9,989 bases of DNA from an uncultured Lysobacteraceae bacterium (lineage in GTDB: Bacteria; Pseudomonadota; Gammaproteobacteria; Xanthomonadales; Xanthomonadaceae), in NCBI GenBank assembly GCA_946886995.1, contig CAMPJU010000031.1:1-9989 (forward strand), in the 5' to 3' direction. The first letter of the stretch is position 1, and the number at the start of each line of letters is the position of its first letter. The position numbers and the translations under genes are program-made. Below the pieces are notes generated by a model that saw only the letters and a program-made list of their open reading frames with translations, searched no databases and was not told the DNA's origin. Positions 183 through 9,989 of the stretch are shown piece after piece.

Positions 183-1154
183 GTGGGAGCCGGACGACCT
201 TCCGCGATCGCCCTGATGGGCCCGACGGCGTCGGGCAAGACGGCGCTCGCCCTTGAGTGGGCGGAACGCCTCGGTGGCGAAATCGTCAGCGTCGATTCGG
301 CACTGGTGTATCGCGGCCTCGACATCGGGGCCGCCAAGCCGAGCGGCGCGGAACGGACCCGCGTCCCGCACCACCTGCTCGACCTGCGCGACCCGTGGGT
401 GCCTTACTCCGCCGCGGAGTTCGCCAGCGACGCGCGTGCCGCCATCGATGCCATCGTCGCGCGGGGACGCGTCCCGATCCTCGCCGGGGGCACCGGGCTC
501 TACTTCCGCGCGCTGCTGCATGGCCTGTCGCCGATGCCCGAGGCCGACGCCGGCATCCGCGCGGCGCTGGAAGCCGAGGCGGCGGAGCGCGGCTGGCCCG
601 CGCTGCATGCCGAACTCGAACGCGTCGACCCGGCGGCTGCCAGGCGCATCCGCCCGGGCGATGCGCAACGCCTGCAACGCGCGCTGGAAGTCTGGCGCCT
701 GACCGGCCGCCCGATCAGCGCCTGGCAGGCGGACCCGCCGCCACCGCGCCTGCCGGTCCGCGTGCTAAAGCTCGTCCTCGCGCCGACCGACCGCGCCGAA
801 CTGCACGCGCGCATCGAGCGCCGGCTCGACGCGATGCTCGCCGGGGGATTCCTGCAGGAAGTGGAGCGGCTGCGCGCGTTGCCGGAACTGCGCGACCACC
901 CGCGCCCCCTCCAGTTGCCTGCACTGCGTGCCGTGGGCTATCGGCAGGCGTGGGAACACCTCGATGGCGCTGCTGACGTCGATGGCCGCGATGCCGCGAC
1001 GTTCCGCGACCGCGCCGTATTCGCGACCCGCCAGCTGGCACGTCGCCAGCTCACCTGGCTGCGCGGGGAACTCGATGCGCGCTGGTTCGACCCGGCGCGG
1101 GACCGCGCCCGCCTCGACGCAGCACTGGAGTCATTCCTGCCCGGCGAAGCGTGA
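183..1154 (+). CDS. miaA: tRNA dimethylallyltransferase (isopentenyl-tRNA transferase)
   Basis: MiaA transfers the dimethylallyl group of DMAPP to N6 of A37 in tRNAs that read UNN codons, the first step toward ms2i6A; it acts in the cytoplasm. The 323-aa product has the usual family length (E. coli about 316). The P-loop GPTASGKT lies at residues 13-20, the DSA motif with catalytic Asp at 38-40, PHHLLD at 62-67, AGGTGLY at 101-107, and the tRNA-binding [12 protein letters not shown] near 283-294. The GTG start at 183 is the only plausible one: the next upstream in-frame codon of note is the putP stop at 168, and the next ATG (216) would remove the first beta strand. There is no clear Shine-Dalgarno sequence, so translation may be coupled to putP, 12 nt upstream. 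It heads the conserved miaA-hfq-hflX-hflKC block. Confidence 0.97.
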
Positions 1155-1176
1155 CCGGAGTCGCATCCGGTCGCCG

Positions 1177-1199
1177 ACCGCCCCGCCACGGGGCGGTTT
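1177..1199 (+). terminator. GC-rich hairpin with short T run after miaA
   Basis: A perfect 9-bp stem (1177-1185 ACCGCCCCG with 1189-1197) closes a 3-nt loop and ends in TTT. It lies 22 nt after the miaA stop. The T tract is only three residues before a G, so termination would be weak; it could equally be a 3'-end processing or stabilising hairpin separating miaA from hfq. Stem and position are directly visible; the function is inferred. Confidence 0.5.
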
Positions 1200-1202
1200 G
1201 TG

Positions 1203-1208
1203 TACCAT
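1203..1208 (+). promoter_or_regulatory. Possible -10 element for hfq
   Basis: TACCAT (4 of 6 to TATAAT) sits just after the post-miaA hairpin and about 95 nt before the hfq ATG. No convincing -35 hexamer is visible; its expected position would overlap the hairpin. hfq is known in enterobacteria to have its own promoters within or after miaA, so a promoter here is reasonable, but sequence support is weak. Confidence 0.28.
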
Positions 1209-1211
1209 CGA

Positions 1212-1272
1212 GCGGCCGCGTGCAGGGGAGTCGACGCGCGGCGCGGCTCGGGCGCGGCTTGCGCGCGGCCGC
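1212..1272 (+). promoter_or_regulatory. Long inverted repeat in the hfq 5' leader
   Basis: Bases 1212-1223 (GCGGCCGCGTGC) can pair along their whole length with 1261-1272 (GCGCGCGGCCGC), giving a 12-bp helix with one G-U pair that encloses 37 nt, itself very GC-rich. Each arm contains the 8-bp palindrome GCGGCCGC. The structure ends 30 nt before the hfq ATG and is followed by an unstructured A-rich segment (AAGAAC, GGGGAAAACACCA) holding the ribosome binding site. It may be a structured leader involved in hfq control; no experiment is implied. Confidence 0.4.
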
Positions 1273-1302
1273 CACAAGAACTCGAAATTGGGGAAAACAC
1301 CA

Positions 1303-1587
1303 ATGTCCAAGGGGCAATCCTTGCAGGACCCGTTCCTGAACGCGTTGCGTCGCGAGCGCGTCCCGGTTTCCGTCTACCTCGTCAACGGCATCAAGCTGCA
1401 GGGCACGATCGAATCGTTCGACCAGTTCGTCGTCCTCCTGCGCAACACGGTCAGCCAGATGGTCTACAAGCACGCGATCTCGACCGTCGTGCCCGCGCGC
1501 AACGTGCGGGTCGGACCGGGCGGCGGCTACGTGCAGTCGGCGGACGGCGACGACGACGGCGGCGAGCCGGACGACGAGGCCGGTTGA
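1303..1587 (+). CDS. hfq: RNA chaperone Hfq
   Basis: Hfq is a hexameric Sm-like protein that pairs small RNAs with target mRNAs and modulates RNA stability. The 94-residue product keeps the Escherichia residue numbering: Q8, the rim patch R16-R17-E18-R19, distal-face Y25, proximal Q41 and F42, and the Sm2 YKHAIS motif with K56-H57. The Sm core spans residues 7-66 and differs from E. coli at only a few positions (for example T35, R47). The C-terminal tail is short, about 28 residues, and strongly acidic: 8 Asp/Glu in the last 15. Start ATG 1303 is preceded by GGGGA at 1290-1294. Longer in-frame starts upstream would overlap miaA and lack homology. It lies between miaA and hflX, the usual context. 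Confidence 0.98.
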
Positions 1588-1593
1588 ACCGGC
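1579..1593 (+). repeat. Small palindrome spanning the hfq stop codon
   Basis: GCCGGTTGAACCGGC is a perfect inverted repeat around one central base, with the hfq TGA in its middle (1585-1587). As RNA it gives a 5-bp GC stem with a 5-nt loop. It is immediately followed by the larger hairpin at 1598-1621, so two stem-loops stack at the hfq-hflX junction. A role in mRNA stability or processing is inference. Confidence 0.45.
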
Positions 1594-1597
1594 GGCC

Positions 1598-1621
1598 CAT
1601 CGCCCCCATTCTCGGGCGATG
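1598..1621 (+). promoter_or_regulatory. Hairpin sequestering the hflX start codon
   Basis: CATCGCCC (1598-1605) is perfectly complementary to GGGCGATG (1614-1621), leaving an 8-nt loop. The last three bases of the 3' arm are the hflX ATG (1619-1621), and the GGGCG before it is the only purine-rich stretch near the expected ribosome binding site. Folding would hide the initiation region, so hflX translation may depend on ribosomes leaving hfq or on another factor. There is no T tract, so it is not an intrinsic terminator. Confidence 0.5.
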
Positions 1622-2965
1622 TTCGAACGATCCCGCCGGGGCGAAACGGCCCTGCTGATCCAGCCCCACGCCGGCGGACCGCCGGACGAGGGGCTGGCCG
1701 AGGAATTCGCCGACCTGGCCCGCTCGGCCGGCGCCACCGTCGCCGCCCAGCTCAATGCCAGGATCGACAAGCCCAATCCCGCGTTCCTAATCGGCACCGG
1801 CAAGCTCGAGGAAGTGAAGGCGGCCTGCGAGGCGACCGGCGCGGACCTGGTCCTGGTCAACCATCCACTGAGCCCGGTCCAGGAACGCAACCTGGAGAAG
1901 GCACTGGAGCGCCGCGTGGTCGACCGCACCGGGCTGATCCTGGACATCTTCGCCCTGCGCGCCAACAGCCACGAAGGCAAGCTGCAGGTCGAGCTGGCCC
2001 AGCTGAAGCACATGGCCACCCGCCTGGTCCGCGGCTGGACCCACCTGGAGCGCCAGCGCGGTGGCTCGATCGGCCTGCGCGGCCCGGGCGAGACCCAGCT
2101 CGAGACCGACCGTCGCCTCCTGCAGAAGCGCCTGGACCAATTGCAGAAGCGGCTGGACAAGGTGGAGGTCCAGCGCACCCAGATGCGTCGCGCGCGGGTG
2201 CGCAGCGAGGTTCCCCGCATCGCACTGGTGGGCTATACCAATGCCGGAAAGTCGACGCTCTTCAACGCGCTGACGGGTGCGGGCGCGTACGCCGCGGACA
2301 AGTTGTTCGCCACCCTGGACCCGACGGTCCGGCGCATCTCGCTGCCGGGCGGGGACGCGGTGCTGGCCGACACGGTCGGCTTCGTCCGCGACCTGCCGCA
2401 CGAGCTCGTCGCCGCGTTCCGGTCGACGTTGAGCGAGGCGCGCGAGGCTGACTTGCTGCTGCACGTGGTCGACGCGGCCGATCCGTTGCGCGACGAGCGG
2501 GTGGCCCAGGTCGACGAAGTGCTCGCCGAGATCGGCGCGGGGGAGATCCCGCAGTTGCTGGCCTACAACAAGATCGACCGTGTGGAGGGCGGCCACGCCC
2601 GCCACGAAGGCGCCGATGCCGCGCAGGCGGCCGAGCTCGGCCAGGCGATCCGCGAAAAGGTCTGGCTGTCGGCGCGCGTCGGCGACGGCCTGGACCTGCT
2701 GCGCAGGGCCCTCGGTGCGCGCCTTGGCCTGCGCCGGGTGGCCGGCGAACTGGTGCTGCCCGGCGATGCAGGCCGGCTGCGCGCCCGCCTCCATGACCTG
2801 GGCGCGGTGCGTTCGGAACAGCACGACGACGACGGCTGGCGCCTGCAGCTGGACCTGGCCGAGGCCGACGCCTCGCGCCTGGCCGCACAGGACTTCGGCG
2901 CGCCGCTGCGCCCGCTGATCGACGGCACGTCCGTCGGCAGCCCGTCCGTGGAAGGCGGGCCCTGA
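1619..2965 (+). CDS. hflX: Ribosome-associated GTPase HflX
   Basis: HflX is a translational GTPase-like protein that binds the 50S E site and splits stalled or stressed 70S ribosomes; it is cytosolic. The 448-aa product aligns from its first residues (MFERSRRGE resembles E. coli MFDRYDAGE), which fixes the start at 1619. The N-terminal HflX domain (about 10-135) carries SPVQERNLE and HEGKLQVELAQL. A linker coiled coil follows GPGETQLETDRR (155-166). The G domain shows G1 GYTNAGKS (205-212), G2 ATLDP (231-235), G3 DTVGF (251-255), G4 NKID (317-320) and G5 SAR (351-353). All nucleotide-binding motifs are intact. The gene starts 31 nt after hfq with its ATG inside a hairpin, and is followed by hflK after 75 nt. 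Confidence 0.97.
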   Translation: MFERSRRGETALLIQPHAGGPPDEGLAEEFADLARSAGATVAAQLNARIDKPNPAFLIGTGKLEEVKAACEATGADLVLVNHPLSPVQERNLEKALERRVVDRTGLILDIFALRANSHEGKLQVELAQLKHMATRLVRGWTHLERQRGGSIGLRGPGETQLETDRRLLQKRLDQLQKRLDKVEVQRTQMRRARVRSEVPRIALVGYTNAGKSTLFNALTGAGAYAADKLFATLDPTVRRISLPGGDAVLADTVGFVRDLPHELVAAFRSTLSEAREADLLLHVVDAADPLRDERVAQVDEVLAEIGAGEIPQLLAYNKIDRVEGGHARHEGADAAQAAELGQAIREKVWLSARVGDGLDLLRRALGARLGLRRVAGELVLPGDAGRLRARLHDLGAVRSEQHDDDGWRLQLDLAEADASRLAAQDFGAPLRPLIDGTSVGSPSVEGGP

Positions 2966-2979
2966 GCCACGCCCTCGTT

Positions 2980-2985
2980 TAGAAT
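2980..2985 (+). promoter_or_regulatory. Possible -10 element for hflK
   Basis: TAGAAT (5 of 6 to TATAAT) lies 15 nt after the hflX stop, within GTTTAGAATCCCC, a form often seen ahead of genes in high-GC gammaproteobacteria. No -35 match is present at 16-18 nt upstream (the region is GGGCCC-rich). The predicted transcript would begin near 2992, just before the GC hairpin at 2999-3024. This would give hflKC expression independent of hflX. Confidence 0.4.
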
Positions 2986-2998
2986 CCCCGTTCATTCC

Positions 2999-3024
2999 GC
3001 CGCGCGCGCCTCGTCGCGCGCGGC
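2999..3024 (+). promoter_or_regulatory. 10-bp GC hairpin in the hflK leader
   Basis: GCCGCGCGCG (2999-3008) pairs perfectly with CGCGCGCGGC (3015-3024) around the 6-nt loop CCTCGT. There is no following T run, so it is not an intrinsic terminator. It ends 7 nt before the GGAG ribosome binding site at 3032-3035, leaving that site open. If transcription starts near 2992 the hairpin would sit almost at the 5' end of the hflKC mRNA, where it could protect against decay. Confidence 0.5.
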
Positions 3025-3040
3025 AACGACTGGAGCAGGC

Positions 3041-4167
3041 ATGGCCTGGAACACCCCCGGCGGCAACGGCAACGACCGTGGTCGCGGCACCGGCGGCAAT
3101 GGACGCAATCCCTGGCCACCGCGCCGCGGGACCGGCGGCGGCATCCTCGACCGCCTGCCCGATCCCCTGCGCGGGATGTTCGATGGCGGTGGCGGCGCCT
3201 GGCGCTGGATCGCCATCGTGCTGCTCCTGTGGCTGGTGTTCAGCAGCATGGTCCTGGTGACCGAGCAGCAGCGCGGCGTGGTCCTGCGGTTCGGCGATTA
3301 CGCGCGGACCATGCAGCCCGGCCTGAACTTCAAGTGGCCGTGGCCGGTCGAGCGCGTGACCAAGGTCAACGCCACCGAGATCAAGACCTTCAGCGACAAC
3401 GTGCCGGTGCTGACCAGCGACGAGAACATCGTCCAGGTCGAGATCAACGTGCAGTACCGGATCGCGGACCCGGAGAAGTTCCTGTTCGGGACGCGCGACG
3501 GCGAGCAGGTGCTCCAGCAGGCTGCCCTGAGCACCGTGCGCGAGCAGGTCGGCCGCTCCCCGCTCGACACCGTGCTGGGCGCGCGCAACGCGCTGGCGGT
3601 GTCGGCGCGCGAGCAGCTGCAGGCCTCGCTGGATGCCTACAACACGGGCCTGGTGGTCACCGAACTCAACCTGCCGAACGCGCGACCGCCGGAAGAAGTG
3701 AAGCCGGCGTTCGACGACGTCAACAGCGCCCAGCAGGACAAGGACCGCCTGATCAGCGAAGCCGAGGCCTACGCCGCGAAGGTCGTGCCCGAAGCCCGTG
3801 GTGCGGCCGCGCGCGTGCGCACCGCCGCCGAGGGCTACCAGGCCGCGGTCGTCGCGCAGGCCACCGGTGAGGCCGCGCGGTTCTCGTTGCTGCTCGACGA
3901 GTACCAGGCCGCGCCCGAGGTCACCCGCAAGCGGCTGTGGCTGCAGACGCTGGAGCAGGTGCTGGCCGAGAACCGCAAGGTCGTCGGCGCCGATTCGCGC
4001 CAGCTGATCTACGTGCCGATGCCGGGTGCGGGCGGCCAGTCCGCCAGCGCGGGCAGCGCGCCGCCGGTGGTCCCGCCCGACGTGGTCGTGCCGGAAACGG
4101 GCGCGGCCGACACCAACGGCCTGCCGCGCCCGCCGCGCCAGCCCCGTACCAATTCGGAGCCGCTGCG

Positions 4168-4171
<4 letters not shown>
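3041..4171 (+). CDS. hflK: FtsH modulator subunit HflK (SPFH/prohibitin family)
   Basis: HflK forms, with HflC, a large inner-membrane complex that encloses and modulates the FtsH AAA protease. The 376-aa product has a Gly/Arg/Pro-rich cytoplasmic N-terminus (1-52), one membrane anchor at about 54-73 (WRWIAIVLLLWLVFSSMVLV), and the SPFH domain beginning VTEQQRGVVLRFGDY. The periplasmic coiled-coil region, rich in Ala/Glu/Arg, covers about 210-285. The C-terminus (from about 328) is low-complexity Gly/Ser/Pro with PRPPRQPR. The ATG is preceded by a good GGAG (3032-3035). Its stop overlaps the hflC ATG in an ATGA quartet at 4168-4171, a classic sign of translational coupling for a 1:1 complex. 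Confidence 0.97.
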
Positions 4172-6413
<2,242 letters not shown>

Positions 6414-6444: not shown

Positions 6445-7185
6445 CTAGCGCGTCGGGTCGACCACCAGGCGAGAAGCATGCAGGCGCGTGTAGTGCGGCA
6501 TGCAGGCTTCGGCGACTTCCGCGGCCGCGCCGGAAAGCGAGGGCTTCGCGCGGGCGCCGGGTGGCTCGAAACCGGTGGACGCGCACACCCGCGCATACCA
6601 GTGCGGTGCCCACGCACCGTCGCTGTCGCGGGGCCCCGCGGGCCAGTGCAGCATGCGATCGGTGAACGCGATCCCGAGCCAGTCGCACAGCGCGCACAGG
6701 AAGGCTCCGGGCGCGCGCAGGAAATCACCCGCATCGATGACCGGCGGTGGCTCGCCGGCAGCGCACAGTGCGTCGTACAGCGCGGCCTGCTGTGGAAGTC
6801 CGATGTCCGTGGGCGTCACGTCCGCGCGCGACTTGACGTAGCTCGCCACCACCTCGCGCGGATCGCGGATGAGCAGCACGTTGCGCAACCCGTTGATCCA
6901 GCCGCGATCGATGTGCGGCAGCAGGTGGTGGGCCATGTGCTTCTGGTACCACACCGGCCGGGCATCGGGCGCGGGGCCGAGCAGGGCGTCGACCACCCGA
7001 CGCCAGTCCGTCTCGCCCGCCGCGATCACTTCGTCCGCGCCGGGATGGTCGAGCCCGGTGTGCGCGAGGTAGTGCGCGTACAGCGGCTCGTCGCTCACCG
7101 CGCAGTCGCCGCGGTTCTCCCACGCCCGCATCATCGCGGTGGAGATGTTGCGCGGGCCGGACCACATCGCGATCCGCACGGTCAC
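6445..7185 (-). CDS. Sulfotransferase-like P-loop protein, partner of the adjacent aminotransferase
   Basis: This 246-aa protein resembles PAPS-dependent sulfotransferases. The N-terminal MWSGPRNISTAMM (residues 7-19) fits the loop that binds the 5'-phosphosulfate, and LIRDPREVVASYVKSR (105-120) fits the 3'-phosphate-binding motif of the fold. Other marked stretches are DEPLY (32-36) and QKHMAHHL (81-88), with the histidines candidate functional residues. There is no signal peptide or membrane helix, so it should be cytosolic. The GTG at 7185 is chosen because it overlaps the upstream aminotransferase stop as GTGA; GTG 7179 and ATG 7167 are alternatives, the last cutting the P-loop strand. 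Its substrate and whether it is catalytic are unknown. The family identification is by motif and memory of homologues; related domains are fused to a class IV aminotransferase in plants. Confidence 0.82.
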   Translation of the reverse strand: MTVRIAMWSGPRNISTAMMRAWENRGDCAVSDEPLYAHYLAHTGLDHPGADEVIAAGETDWRRVVDALLGPAPDARPVWYQKHMAHHLLPHIDRGWINGLRNVLLIRDPREVVASYVKSRADVTPTDIGLPQQAALYDALCAAGEPPPVIDAGDFLRAPGAFLCALCDWLGIAFTDRMLHWPAGPRDSDGAWAPHWYARVCASTGFEPPGARAKPSLSGAAAEVAEACMPHYTRLHASRLVVDPTR

Positions 7186-8141
7186 GGGCGCTTGCGGCCT
7201 TCGACGTCGCGGCGGACCAGGTCGCGGTAGAGGTCCTGCAGGCGCCGCACCATCGGGCCGCGGTTGTCGTCGGCCGGCGTGCCGGTCAACGCATCGCCGC
7301 CGATCCAGCGCCCGTCGACGGTGTGCACCGGCACCACGCCGGCGAACGTCCCGGTGACGAACGCCTCGTCCGCGCCGTACACGTCCGTCAGGCTGAAGGC
7401 TTTCTCGAACACCGGGATCCCGGCATCGCGACAGAGGCGGATGACGTTGCCACGCGTGATGCCGCCCAGGCAGTACTGGCCGGTGGAGGTCCAGACCTCG
7501 CCCTTGCGGACGATGAAGAAATGGGTCGAATTGCACGTGGCGACGAACCCGTGCGGGTCCAGCATCAGCGCTTCGTCCGCGCCGGCCTGGGTGGCCTGGA
7601 TGCAGGCGGTGATGCAGTTGAGCTTGCTGTGCGAGTTGAGCTTCGGGTCCTGCACGTCCGGGAACCCGCGCCGCACGTGGACCGTGTGCAGCGAAACGCC
7701 ACGCGCGGCGCTGGCCGGCGACGCCGCCTTGTATTCCGCGATGATCACGATGGTCGCCTTGCCCTCGGTGACCCGAGGGTCCTGGTACGGCGTGCGCCGC
7801 ACCCCGCGGCTGGCCATCAGGCGTACGTGGACGGCGTCGTCGCCGGACATGCCGTTCGCGTCGAGGACGTCGTGGATGCGGCGGGTCAGGGCGGCCCGGT
7901 CCAGGCCCAGGTCGATCATCAGCGCCTTGGCGCCCTCGTAGAGCCGGTCCAGGTGGGCCTCGAGGAACGCGGGATGGCCGTCGACGATGCGGAAGCCTTC
8001 CCAGACGCCGTCGCCGAGGACGAAGCCCGAATCGAAGACAGAGACGGTGGCCTGGGCGCGCGGAACGAGGGATCCGTTGACGGAGATGAGGATCGAATCG
8101 TTCCGCGGGTCGTCGGTGGCGTGCTGGGTACCCTGGGTCAT
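7182..8141 (-). CDS. Class IV PLP-dependent aminotransferase (branched-chain aminotransferase-like)
   Basis: Class IV aminotransferases use PLP to move amino groups between amino and keto acids (branched-chain aminotransferase, D-amino-acid transaminase, ADC lyase). The 319-aa product shows SVFDSGFVLGDGVWEGFR (34-51), the candidate Schiff-base lysine K173 in HSKLNC, ADEALMLDPHGFVA (188-201), and CLGGITRGNVI (214-224). The glutamate that normally follows 'GxxxE' and contacts the PLP ring nitrogen appears to be threonine (FVATCNST, T202). Start ATG 8141 is chosen over ATG 8162 and TTG 8186 because a TACAAT -10 element sits 7 nt upstream of it, overlapping the longer versions. It is the first gene of a two-gene unit with the sulfotransferase-like gene (4-nt overlap). 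Being ilvE itself is possible, but the active-site loop is atypical, so no symbol is given. Confidence 0.9.
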   Translation of the reverse strand: MTQGTQHATDDPRNDSILISVNGSLVPRAQATVSVFDSGFVLGDGVWEGFRIVDGHPAFLEAHLDRLYEGAKALMIDLGLDRAALTRRIHDVLDANGMSGDDAVHVRLMASRGVRRTPYQDPRVTEGKATIVIIAEYKAASPASAARGVSLHTVHVRRGFPDVQDPKLNSHSKLNCITACIQATQAGADEALMLDPHGFVATCNSTHFFIVRKGEVWTSTGQYCLGGITRGNVIRLCRDAGIPVFEKAFSLTDVYGADEAFVTGTFAGVVPVHTVDGRWIGGDALTGTPADDNRGPMVRRLQDLYRDLVRRDVEGRKRP

Positions 8142-8218: not shown

Positions 8219-9148
8219 ATGTGCTATTCCGCCCAGCTCAAGGCCGACTATCGCCAGTTCCTGCGCGACACCGGTACCCGGATCGACATCGATTCGTTCA
8301 TGCGCCTGTACTGGGAGCGCAGCGAGGGCGCGAAACACCGGATCCCGCGCGCGATGGACGCGCTGTTCGCGGCGCCGGCCACGGCGGATGAGCGGCGCAT
8401 CGCGGACCTGGTTGCCGCGTTCGACCGGGCCGAAGCCGCGCGCCTGGAACAGCTGCTCTTCGGCCAGCGCAAGCGCCTGGCGGACGCGGAGCGCAAGTTG
8501 CAGCAGAAGCACACGAAGGCCGCCGCCGAAAGCAGGCGCATCGCCACGAACAAGGTGCAATGGGCCCTCGGCAAGCTCGCCGCCCTCAGGCGTACTGCGC
8601 TTTCCCCGGACGATGCACGGATCTTCCCGGGCTGGCATGCCCCGGTCCTGGTGGAGGAGGGCGGCCGGCGTCAGCTCAGGCCCATGCGCTACCAGTGCCG
8701 CCCGGCCGGCAAGCCGGAAACGCATGACCGCAGGTATCCCGGCACCTACAACGCCCGGCGCGACAACCTGGAGGGCTTCTGGAAGTCGCAGTTCGGCGCC
8801 AGCCACGGCATCGTGGTGCTCAACGCGTTCTTCGAGAACGTCGAGCGTGCCGGGAGCAACGTGGTGCTCGAATTCCGGCCCGAGCCCATGCAGGACATGC
8901 TGGTGGCCTGCCTGTGGTCGCGATGGGAGCCGCCGGCGGGCAGCGGATCGGATCCGTTGCTGTCGTTCGCGGCGATCACCGACGAGCCCCCGCCCGAAGT
9001 CGCGGCGGCCGGGCACGACCGCTGCATCATCCCGGTCAAGCCGGCGCACCTGGACGCATGGCTGAGGCCCTCGGGAGACCTGGCGGAGTCGTACGCGATC
9101 CTGGACGACCGGGCACGCCCCTACTACGAACACCGGATGGCGGCCTGA
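8219..9148 (+). CDS. SRAP-family (HMCES/YedK-like) abasic-site DNA-protein crosslink protein, variant with long insertion
   Basis: SRAP proteins use Cys2, exposed after Met removal, to form a thiazolidine crosslink with abasic sites in single-stranded DNA, shielding them from error-prone repair. The 309-aa product begins MCYSAQ, with C2 in place but a different following motif from the usual MCGR. Core motifs are YNAR (177-180, N178), a hydrophobic strand then NAFFENV with candidate catalytic E206, and GHDR (265-268) with H266 before a strand and the AWL turn (280-282). Residues about 22-135 are an extra helical, highly charged segment (basic coiled-coil-like stretch about 70-112) absent from the typical 220-230-aa family member. 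ATG 8219 is fixed by the need for Cys at position 2; upstream in-frame codons would bury it. It is divergent from the aminotransferase pair and convergent with the kinase gene. Confidence 0.85.
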   Translation: MCYSAQLKADYRQFLRDTGTRIDIDSFMRLYWERSEGAKHRIPRAMDALFAAPATADERRIADLVAAFDRAEAARLEQLLFGQRKRLADAERKLQQKHTKAAAESRRIATNKVQWALGKLAALRRTALSPDDARIFPGWHAPVLVEEGGRRQLRPMRYQCRPAGKPETHDRRYPGTYNARRDNLEGFWKSQFGASHGIVVLNAFFENVERAGSNVVLEFRPEPMQDMLVACLWSRWEPPAGSGSDPLLSFAAITDEPPPEVAAAGHDRCIIPVKPAHLDAWLRPSGDLAESYAILDDRARPYYEHRMAA

Positions 9149-9164: not shown

Positions 9165-9989
9165 CTAGAGGCTGCGGCGGATCTCGTCCAGCAGTTCCCC
9201 GAGCACGCGGATGTCCGCCGGCTTGCTGAAGTGATGGTCGAACCCGGCTTCGCGCGCGCGCTGCCGGTCGCGCTCTTCGCCCCACCCGGTCATCGCCGCG
9301 AGCACCATCCCGCCGTGGACCGTGCGTTCGCGCAGGTGCCGCGCCAATGTGTAGCCATCCATGCCCGGCATGCCGATGTCCAGCAGCGCGAGGTCGGGGT
9401 GGAAGCGCGTCGCCTCGTCGAGCGCCTCCTCGCCGGCGTGGGCAACGGCGACATCGACGTCCATGGCCTCCAGCAGCATGGCCATGGACTGGGCCGCGTC
9501 GCGGTTGTCGTCGACCACCAGCACCTTCAGCCGCGGGGCGTCGCCGTCGACGGGTGCGTTCGCCTGGGGAGATGCGGGCGCGGGATGGCTGGACGCGTCC
9601 GAGAGCGGCAGGCGAACGACGAATTCCGCCCCCTTGCCCTTGCCCTCGCTGTGCCCGGTGACGCTGCCGCCGTGCATCACCACGAGCTGGTGGACGAGGG
9701 CCAGCCCGATCCCCAGGCCATCGTGCAAGCGGTGCTCGCTCCGCCGTCCCTGCGAGAACAGCTCGAAGATCCTCGGCAGCAACTCGGGCTCGATACCGTC
9801 CCCGTCGTCCAGCACGGCGGCGACCGCCTCGTTGCCGTCGTGTCGCGCGGCGACTTCCACCGTGCCTCCGGGCTTGCCGTAGCGGATGGCGTTGTTCAGG
9901 AGGTTCCCGAACACCTGCGCGAGCCGCACGGGATCGGCATCGAGCGGGATCGGCTGCTCGGGCAGGGTGAGCAGGATTCGCGGCGCGTC
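9165..9989 (-). CDS. Hybrid sensor histidine kinase/response regulator, C-terminal part (cut by window edge)
   Basis: The frame is open from the window edge to TAG at 9165-9167, giving 274 residues. The first part is a histidine-kinase ATPase domain: N box FGNLLNNAIRYG (27-38), G1 DDGDG (61-65), F box FELFSQ (75-80), G2 GLGIG (91-95). After an Ala/Pro/Ser linker (about 131-150) comes a receiver domain with acidic pocket D160-D161, phosphoacceptor D204 in LLDIGMPGMDG, T234 and K256. All signalling residues are present. The sensor and phosphorylated-histidine regions lie beyond 9989, so the signal is unknown. There is no output domain after the receiver, so phosphate probably passes to a separate phosphotransfer protein or the receiver controls the kinase. 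It ends 16 nt from the convergent SRAP gene. Confidence 0.93.
   Translation of the reverse strand, partial: DAPRILLTLPEQPIPLDADPVRLAQVFGNLLNNAIRYGKPGGTVEVAARHDGNEAVAAVLDDGDGIEPELLPRIFELFSQGRRSEHRLHDGLGIGLALVHQLVVMHGGSVTGHSEGKGKGAEFVVRLPLSDASSHPAPASPQANAPVDGDAPRLKVLVVDDNRDAAQSMAMLLEAMDVDVAVAHAGEEALDEATRFHPDLALLDIGMPGMDGYTLARHLRERTVHGGMVLAAMTGWGEERDRQRAREAGFDHHFSKPADIRVLGELLDEIRRSL

Follow-up and report, generated by a model that had tools for sequence, protein, structure and literature searches.

The window, a stretch of 9,989 nucleotides from an uncultured Lysobacteraceae bacterium, encodes, in two overlapping genes, two proteins which we regard, with moderate confidence, as one module: a PAPS-dependent sulfotransferase (ST) and a dedicated, non-transaminating partner (AT) built on the fold-IV aminotransferase scaffold and handling an amino-acid-like compound. 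The two genes are paired across bacterial phyla, co-occur in genomes and are fused in eukaryotes. The AT partner has lost the catalytic lysine, and the ST has the fold and the motifs of a sulfotransferase. Both halves are known folds, and one lysine-less relative of the AT already has a deposited structure.

The gene pair

The AT frame ends with ...AAG CGC CCG TGA, and the possible ST start is the GTG overlapping that stop. The GTGA overlap, the coordinates and the order of the genes on the strand agree with the original prediction, and both frames belong to real families. The AT matches PF01063 (Aminotran_4; E=1.2e-42, 146.7 bits against a cut-off of 28.5) and the ST matches PF19798 (Sulfotransfer_5; E=6.3e-59, 199.6 bits against a cut-off of 23.2) in Pfam. 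In NCBIfam there is no family for the window ST and none above the cut-off for the window AT. The nearest named relatives are Lysobacteraceae.

Table 1. Features of the AT–ST pair in the window.
Feature	Position	Strand	Basis
AT: class IV (fold-IV) aminotransferase homologue without catalytic lysine, 319 aa	7182..8141	-	translation; PF01063
ST: Sulfotransfer_5 protein, sulfotransferase fold, 246 aa, GTG start	6445..7185	-	translation; PF19798; AlphaFold model
GTGA overlap, AT stop TGA within ST start GTG	7182..7185	-	sequence
Asn169 codon, opposite the Schiff-base lysine of fold-IV aminotransferases	7635..7637	-	alignment to 5mqz/5cm0/5e25
Thr202 codon, opposite the Glu contacting PLP pyridine N1	7536..7538	-	alignment; Glu role PMC9309667
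ST loop WSGPRNIST, residues 8-16, presumably 5'-phosphosulfate-type	7138..7164	-	conservation in 138 sequences
ST motif R107-x-P109-x5-S115, presumably 3'-phosphate-type	6841..6867	-	conservation in 138 sequences

Pairing and distribution in bacteria

A scan with the AT alignment, one genome per species, gave at least 572 confirmed matches, and the analysis went on with the best 80 loci. Of these best 80, 75 have an ST within the stretch fetched and 5 have none. The ST follows the AT on the same strand in 73 and is divergent in 2; two of the 73 have gaps of 0.9 and 2.5 kb, and an in-frame four-nucleotide overlap ([AGT]TGA) is seen in 57 of the 73. According to the record titles, the pair recurs in Alpha- and Gammaproteobacteria and in Actinomycetota, and this spread over classes and phyla refutes a restriction to one genus.

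As the first scan began from the AT, a second was begun from the ST. A total of 72 ST loci came from genome samples around an Anaerolineae MAG (G001; 200 genomes of its phylum), an actinomycete MAG (G002; 246 of its phylum), Pseudoxanthomonas yeongjuensis (G005; 274 of its class) and Oceanibacterium hippocampi (G006; 190 of its class), all named after their record titles. The phylum sample of G001 shares genomes with both proteobacterial class samples, and therefore locus L004, titled Anaerolineae, was left out as evidence for Chloroflexota. Five distant ST matches in the phylum sample of G002 had no locus and were also left out. The ST scores split into 50 close loci at 161-420 bits and 22 distant loci at 115 bits or less, a boundary chosen after the gap was seen. 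A lysine-less AT lies within the fetched stretch (up to 3.7 kb) of 44 of the 50 close STs and of 0 of the 22 distant ones. The remaining six close STs have no AT within roughly 5 to 7 kb on either side. The idea that these had lost their partner proved wrong, because five of the six genomes carry a lysine-less AT elsewhere.

Co-occurrence is very strong. Among the 190 genomes of the G006 class, a close ST is found in 20, a lysine-less AT in 23 and both in 19 (Fisher p=2.7e-21). Among the 246 genomes of the G002 phylum, a close ST is found in 14 and a lysine-less AT in exactly those 14 (p=4.3e-23), while six weaker AT matches (E 1e-45 or better) all have the lysine. Both samples contain their centre genomes, themselves picked for carrying the pair. 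The counts of lysine-less AT rest on E thresholds for matches to the window AT (1e-50 for the G006 class, 1e-45 for the G002 phylum), so remote His-type copies could escape. The dependence is one-sided: the ST almost never occurs without the AT, and the AT sometimes occurs without the ST.

In most bacterial loci read, the AT gene precedes the ST gene. The reverse order is found in all six bacterial pairs with a His-type AT (L093, L094, L098, L101, L129, L130) and in the Asn-type pairs L083, L140, L142 and L147. A constant third gene beside the pair was rejected as a general feature by clustering and Pfam/NCBIfam scans of selected neighbours, which proved varied: nitrilase, amine oxidase, agmatine-deiminase-like, M24, M19, M20 and threonine-dehydratase-like genes, and housekeeping genes (hemL, G6PD). 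A link with ectoine degradation was also rejected, the M24, AstE/AspA, PALP and PhyH neighbours being far below the NCBIfam ectoine cut-offs.

Fusions in eukaryotes

The fusion search gave 703 matches, of which 120 were listed and 118 proteins read. Among the matches listed, 115 of the 118 are arranged ST-AT, 1 is AT-ST and 2 are AT only; some of these rows are probably bacterial. The named sources among the matches listed are green algae, chytrids and land plants, including Myrmecia, Chlorella, Volvox, Pycnococcus, Gonapodya, Riccia, Marchantia, Physcomitrium and Selaginella; the land-plant fusions listed span liverworts, a moss, Selaginella and many flowering plants. Apparent AT-ST fusions among the matches of another homology search may be sequencing frameshifts and were left uncounted.

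Both domains of the Myrmecia fusion are homologous to the window pair (40% identity for the ST, 59% for the AT). The model of the algal fusion has a pLDDT of 87.8; its AT part matches 7z79 with a TM-score of 0.93 by target length at 50% identity, and the fold also matches 5mqz. The chlorophyte and chytrid fusions have Asn at the place of the lysine, as in the window, whereas the land-plant fusions have His and retain the glutamate. Several plant records carry the name branched-chain-amino-acid aminotransferase-like. Proteins 1 and 2 of that name combine both domains in one chain, as the window pair does in two, but differ from it in the order ST-AT and in the His subtype with Glu, against Asn and Thr in the window. 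In Chlamydomonas, Cre01.g033763 has been described as a D-aminoacid aminotransferase-like GreenCut2 gene among the targets of acetate-requiring mutants (PMC8448359), and it could be the ST-AT fusion.

The claim that genes adjacent in bacteria are fused in plants, and thus form a conserved unit, is well borne out by these counts. One reservation, that the plant fusions might belong to unrelated subfamilies, holds by half: the chlorophyte and chytrid proteins share the window subtype, and those of land plants belong to a sister subtype.

Loss of the catalytic lysine

In the alignment with the archaeal branched-chain aminotransferases 5mqz, 5cm0 and 5e25, the window segment DPKLNSHSKLN lies opposite PPNIKSLNYLN, which places Asn169 at the position of the Schiff-base lysine. 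In the same alignment FVATCNS lies opposite YVSEGSG, with Thr202 at the place of the glutamate that contacts the pyridine N1. The archaeal enzymes have the same fold and phosphate-binding residues as the window AT but differ in possessing the catalytic Lys and Glu. The roles of both residues in fold-IV aminotransferases are described in a review (PMC9309667).

The lysine is absent in all 44 ST-adjacent partners, with Asn in 38 and His in 6. Among the fusion-search matches listed (n=118), 73 proteins have Asn, 41 His, 1 Ser and none Lys, three being unreadable, so that the lysine is missing in 115 of 115 readable proteins. A control covered 30 class IV loci in 10 genomes, after four of 34 matches without a locus were left out. 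Away from the ST, 21 of 22 loci have Lys and the remaining one reads Met, probably by an alignment shift; beside the ST, 5 of 8 have Asn and 3 of 8 His. A further 25 AT loci from 18 genomes, most with a distant ST only, comprise 22 with Lys, 2 lysine-less (from genomes G191 and G633) and 1 fragment.

The phosphate cup (R66, T229, R230, G264, T265) is present in the window AT by alignment, and R66, T229, R230 and T265, together with R107, are retained in both lysine-less subtypes. W47, H105, E136, K138 and N204 are common to both subtypes and occur in 0 of 14 Lys rows. By the pattern Tyr-x-Arg, H105 stands at the place of the tyrosine that meets the substrate carboxylate in branched-chain aminotransferases (PMC9309667). 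The pyridine-N1 glutamate is replaced by Thr202 in the window AT and retained in the His subtype.

The original prediction treated the first protein as an aminotransferase acting by transamination. That reading had to be abandoned, the Schiff-base lysine being absent from the window AT and from every readable ST partner; judged from its residues, the AT partner likely does not transaminate. The missing lysine had escaped the original prediction.

Could the lysine four residues further on, Lys173, stand in for the lost one and leave a true transaminase? It is Lys in 49 of 54 Asn-type rows, but position 173 is Arg in the ST-linked L083, L084, L138, L140, L142 and L144 and in 7z79, and all 15 His-type rows have Leu there. 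Lys173 is therefore no conserved substitute lysine; it was rejected in that role, and we consider a transaminase of this kind very improbable.

By sequence, the closest solved relative of the window AT is 7z79, an aminotransferase-like protein from Variovorax paradoxus (E=7.8e-102) with Asn at the place of the lysine. The same protein has been deposited as the mutant N174K (9j32), which implies that the depositors noticed the odd residue. Members of its type (Arg173, Ser202) stand beside an ST (L083, L140, L142, L144) and also, on their own, within operons for importers (L203, L204). In the literature covered, which leaves out most subscription papers, we found no paper on the 7z79 protein and none linking this lysine-less relative to sulfotransferases or plants. 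Searches with Arabidopsis locus names, plant loci, PDB codes, and the ST together with an aminotransferase pseudoenzyme returned nothing useful. A plant sulfotransferase study used PF19798 among its profiles, and its main text does not contain the word aminotransferase (PMC12506393); the aminotransferase review, in turn, does not contain the word sulfotransferase (PMC9309667).

The sulfotransferase half

The second protein had been called sulfotransferase-like, and its AlphaFold model (pLDDT 96.1) confirms this, the closest folds being sulfotransferases. They include the PAPS sulfotransferases CurM ST (4gbm), olefin-synthase ST (4gox) and tyrosylprotein ST, with 12-16% identity to the window ST. 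A PDB sequence search with the window ST gave antibody noise and nothing useful. W8, P11, R12 and S15 are present in 138 of 138 ST sequences, S9 and T16 in 137, and R107, P109 and S115 again in all 138. The nucleotide-binding motifs, WSGPR..ST and RxP.....S, are conserved in the window ST as sequence patterns. We take WSGPRNIST to be the 5'-phosphosulfate-type loop and RxP.....S the 3'-phosphate-type motif, and by these motifs the ST would use PAPS.

Phylogeny of the two partners

The AT trees were built with the motif masked, from 83 rows and then from 98 rows that include the nearest Lys relatives found; four long-branch Lys rows were left out of the larger tree. A single branch separates the lysine-less AT from the Lys enzymes (support 99 with 83 rows, 100 with 98). 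The His type (15 rows, support 98-99) and the Asn type (54 or 65 rows, support 100) are sister groups, and so, given the sampled Lys rows, one loss of the lysine suffices. The fusions of chlorophytes and chytrids nest within the Asn clade, those of land plants within the His clade.

Among the 83 rows of the ST tree, the close STs form one clade against the distant ones. The window groups with L052, L051 and L054 in both trees. Plotted on the ST tree, the His label of the partner changes five times, with at least two changes forced by well-supported branches, and a single clade of His-type STs is rejected (AU p=0.00016; 82 rows, L151 left out). Judged from these trees, AT and ST have exchanged partners at least once. 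The expected co-phylogeny is hence upheld within local clades, whereas at depth the AT subtypes have been exchanged.

The ST domains from eukaryotes all come together on a single branch of the tree (support 99 with 83 rows, 100 with 82). Since this one branch is joined to two AT subtypes, a partner swap inside plants would follow. The single eukaryotic origin of the fused ST is nevertheless weaker than it first appeared: the alternative tree (82 rows), in which the land-plant ST joins the bacterial His-type ST, withstands the AU test (p=0.229), and there may therefore have been two separate fusions.

AT copies without a sulfotransferase

A search of plasmids gave 21 AT matches, 20 of them 49.7-54.5% identical to the window AT. 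Sixteen loci were opened (H7, H8, H13, H18 and H19 were left out). One of the 16, in an ilv operon of Alkalihalophilus, has the lysine; the other 15 are of the Asn type and lack an ST within the stretch fetched. When the plasmid collection was searched for the ST, three records matched, none of them among these AT plasmids. An importer gene lies within 8 kb in 15 of 15 Asn-type plasmid loci, and in 10 of 15 an amino-acid ABC ATPase gene stands 0.75-1.7 kb upstream on the same strand, measured from match start to match start. The AT without ST was also found in 4 of 190 genomes, three of which have the order SBP-permease-permease-ATPase-AT (L320-L322). No SBP or permease match was obtained for G810, 12 further Asn-type loci and 4 His-type loci of its taxonomic order; as these 13 Asn-type and 4 His-type loci have beside them neither an ST nor an amino-acid importer of the probed kind, the importer theme is not general.

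The 75 ST-linked loci gave no SBP or permease of the plasmid-importer kind, and a general ABC ATPase probe matched 6 of them; the ST-linked pair L161, outside those 75, stands before a branched-chain-type ABC importer. The neighbour probes were taken from L062, L164, L201, L202, L207, L280, L281, L283 and L284, which match themselves. In Mameliella alba the AT gene overlaps a choline-sulfatase gene by 4 nt (591.6 bits against a cut-off of 433.45), and in Yoonia another choline-sulfatase gene lies about 4 kb downstream of the AT. A sulfatase link is found in 2 of 15 AT-only loci, and a weak sulfatase match in 1 of 75 ST-linked loci (L006). ClC anion-channel genes follow the AT in L206, L209 and L284, with proC near in all three; ornithine-cyclodeaminase family genes are found at L283 and L209, and a sulfatase gene at L280. 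As the AT exists without the ST, its basic job needs no sulfation.

Possible function of the module

In the module that we favour, the partner has kept the phosphate-binding cup and an active-site Arg and given up the lysine for covalent PLP binding, the window subtype having lost the PLP-activating Glu as well. It has gained the polar pocket residues His105, Glu136, Lys138 and Asn204, and may bind an amino-acid-like, probably anionic, small molecule. The ST and the partner would act jointly on that molecule, with the sulfate put on or taken off. An amino-acid-like compound is the likely substrate class, and we infer a physical complex of AT and ST. The varied neighbours of the ST-linked pairs, with no constant third gene, weigh against this account, as do the limited reach of the importer theme, the rarity of the sulfatase link and the existence of the AT without an ST.

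Sulfate may instead serve as activation, a reading which we hold to be unlikely though worth weighing. In this reading an amino compound would be sulfated by the ST on a hydroxyl; the partner, with noncovalent PLP or PMP, would then expel the sulfate and form an enamine or imine; AT copies without an ST would import the ready-made substrate. In CurM ST and olefin-synthase ST, both among the nearest ST folds, sulfate serves as a leaving group, but likeness in fold is a poor guide to what a sulfotransferase's sulfate is used for. A further precedent is offered by the ColD-type PMP-dependent sugar dehydratases, where the PLP lysine is replaced by His, the residue that the land-plant subtype also has. 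These enzymes, however, are of fold type I and not IV, and in our proteins the His is confined to the sister clade; the window AT has Asn. The retained phosphate cup is also in favour of activation, but with Asn and Thr at its two key positions the window AT has no obvious acid or base, and PLP binding is hypothetical. The AT-only loci add imine-reductase genes (proC at L206, L209 and L284; ornithine-cyclodeaminase family at L283 and L209), the sulfatase gene at L280 and the ClC genes at L206, L209 and L284. The proC/ClC loci, however, look like one operon type and hence are not independent. A pseudo-enzyme sensor or scaffold, which would bind an amino acid or B6 vitamer and regulate or position the ST (or an importer) with no chemistry of its own, appears to us doubtful to the same degree. 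The Asn/Thr and His/Glu subtypes both serve as ST partners and the STs of His-type pairs are not one clade, so that the exact active-site residue seems unimportant; the stronger dependence of the ST on the AT than the reverse points the same way. The strong conservation of H105, R107, E136, K138 and N204 in both subtypes is enzyme-like and argues against it. The lost lysine could finally mark an AT that is decaying beside an unrelated gene, adjacent by descent. This is refuted by the eukaryotic fusions, by adjacency across phyla, by co-occurrence even when the genes lie apart and by the high conservation of the AT between window and alga, and its probability is negligible.

The boldest reading, to which we give a rather low probability, is a new sulfation-dependent amino-acid pathway common to bacteria, green algae, chytrids and land plants. 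Here the partner, whose Asn and His versions would have replaced each other in evolution, would perform novel fold-IV chemistry at the carbon that the ST had sulfated in an amino compound. By analogy, each half of this chemistry would have a precedent, in CurM and ColD.

Biological significance

Because green algae and land plants carry both parts joined in one protein, a sulfation step may be common to bacteria and plants. The plant name branched-chain-amino-acid aminotransferase-like is probably misleading, because its aminotransferase half has no catalytic lysine and the remaining half resembles a sulfotransferase. With the two-gene bacterial form, the question can readily be tested in species that grow in culture. 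Amino-acid-like sulfate esters are candidate substrates, as suggested by the AT-only operons with importers, one of which has an overlapping sulfatase gene. A single loss of the lysine, followed by Asn and His versions working with the same ST clade, would be an unusual repurposing of a PLP fold.

Gene neighbourhood of the pair

The pair formed by the class IV aminotransferase homologue (AT) and the Sulfotransfer_5 protein (ST) is located beyond the purA look-alike, on the opposite strand. Judged from the sequence, the series ending in this gene looks like an ordinary housekeeping order. On the far side, the SRAP/YedK-like frame is divergent to the pair, and the kinase look-alike behind it is incomplete, truncated at the window edge.

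Features and operons with their positions
Feature	Position	Strand	Basis
miaA, hfq, hflX, hflK, hflC, purA look-alike series	window 183-6413	plus	by eye, no search
Putative SOS-response-associated peptidase (SRAP/YedK-like) ORF, start MCYSAQLKADYRQFL	window 8220-9148	plus	by eye
Putative hybrid histidine kinase/response regulator, C-terminal part	window 9165-9989	minus	by eye
Mameliella alba plasmid operon	L280:346-9906
Plasmid operon with GntR, amino-acid ABC importer, Lys-less AT, ClC chloride channel and proC	L284:743-7967; also L209, L206

Elsewhere, M24 creatinase/prolidase-like genes immediately adjoin Arg173-subtype ST-AT pairs in two genomes (loci L162 and L164), and in L062 and L072 the genes after the pair are one of the nitrilase family and one resembling flavin amine oxidases. 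Some database records (P0067, P0084) name the ST a “HAD family hydrolase”, apparently a wrong name that has been carried over.

Solo and plasmid-borne aminotransferase homologues

The Lys-less AT also occurs with no ST alongside. Four genomes (L316-L319) carry such a solo His-type AT (AKIHH-NQLNQ); in L316 it adjoins an Fe-alcohol dehydrogenase gene. The solo Asn-type AT is adjoined by a gene of 406-412 aa in L312 and L314 and, by size and place, in L311, L313 and L315; a scan of the L312 copy, the only one of the five behind this assignment, indicated a relative of M20 N-carbamoyl-amino-acid hydrolases. A 127-residue piece with an internal stop and 56% identity to the window AT (L251) is perhaps a broken Lys-less AT gene; the ST found in its genome, G706, are all of the distant type.

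A ClC chloride channel gene accompanies the Lys-less AT on the plasmid loci L284, L209 and L206; in L206 proC is placed upstream. The L280 operon comprises an amino-acid ABC importer, a Lys-less AT, a choline-sulfatase (its gene overlapping that of the AT by 4 nt), a DHDPS-like protein, an FAD oxidoreductase and an SDR; it is a candidate for the breakdown of a sulfated amino compound.
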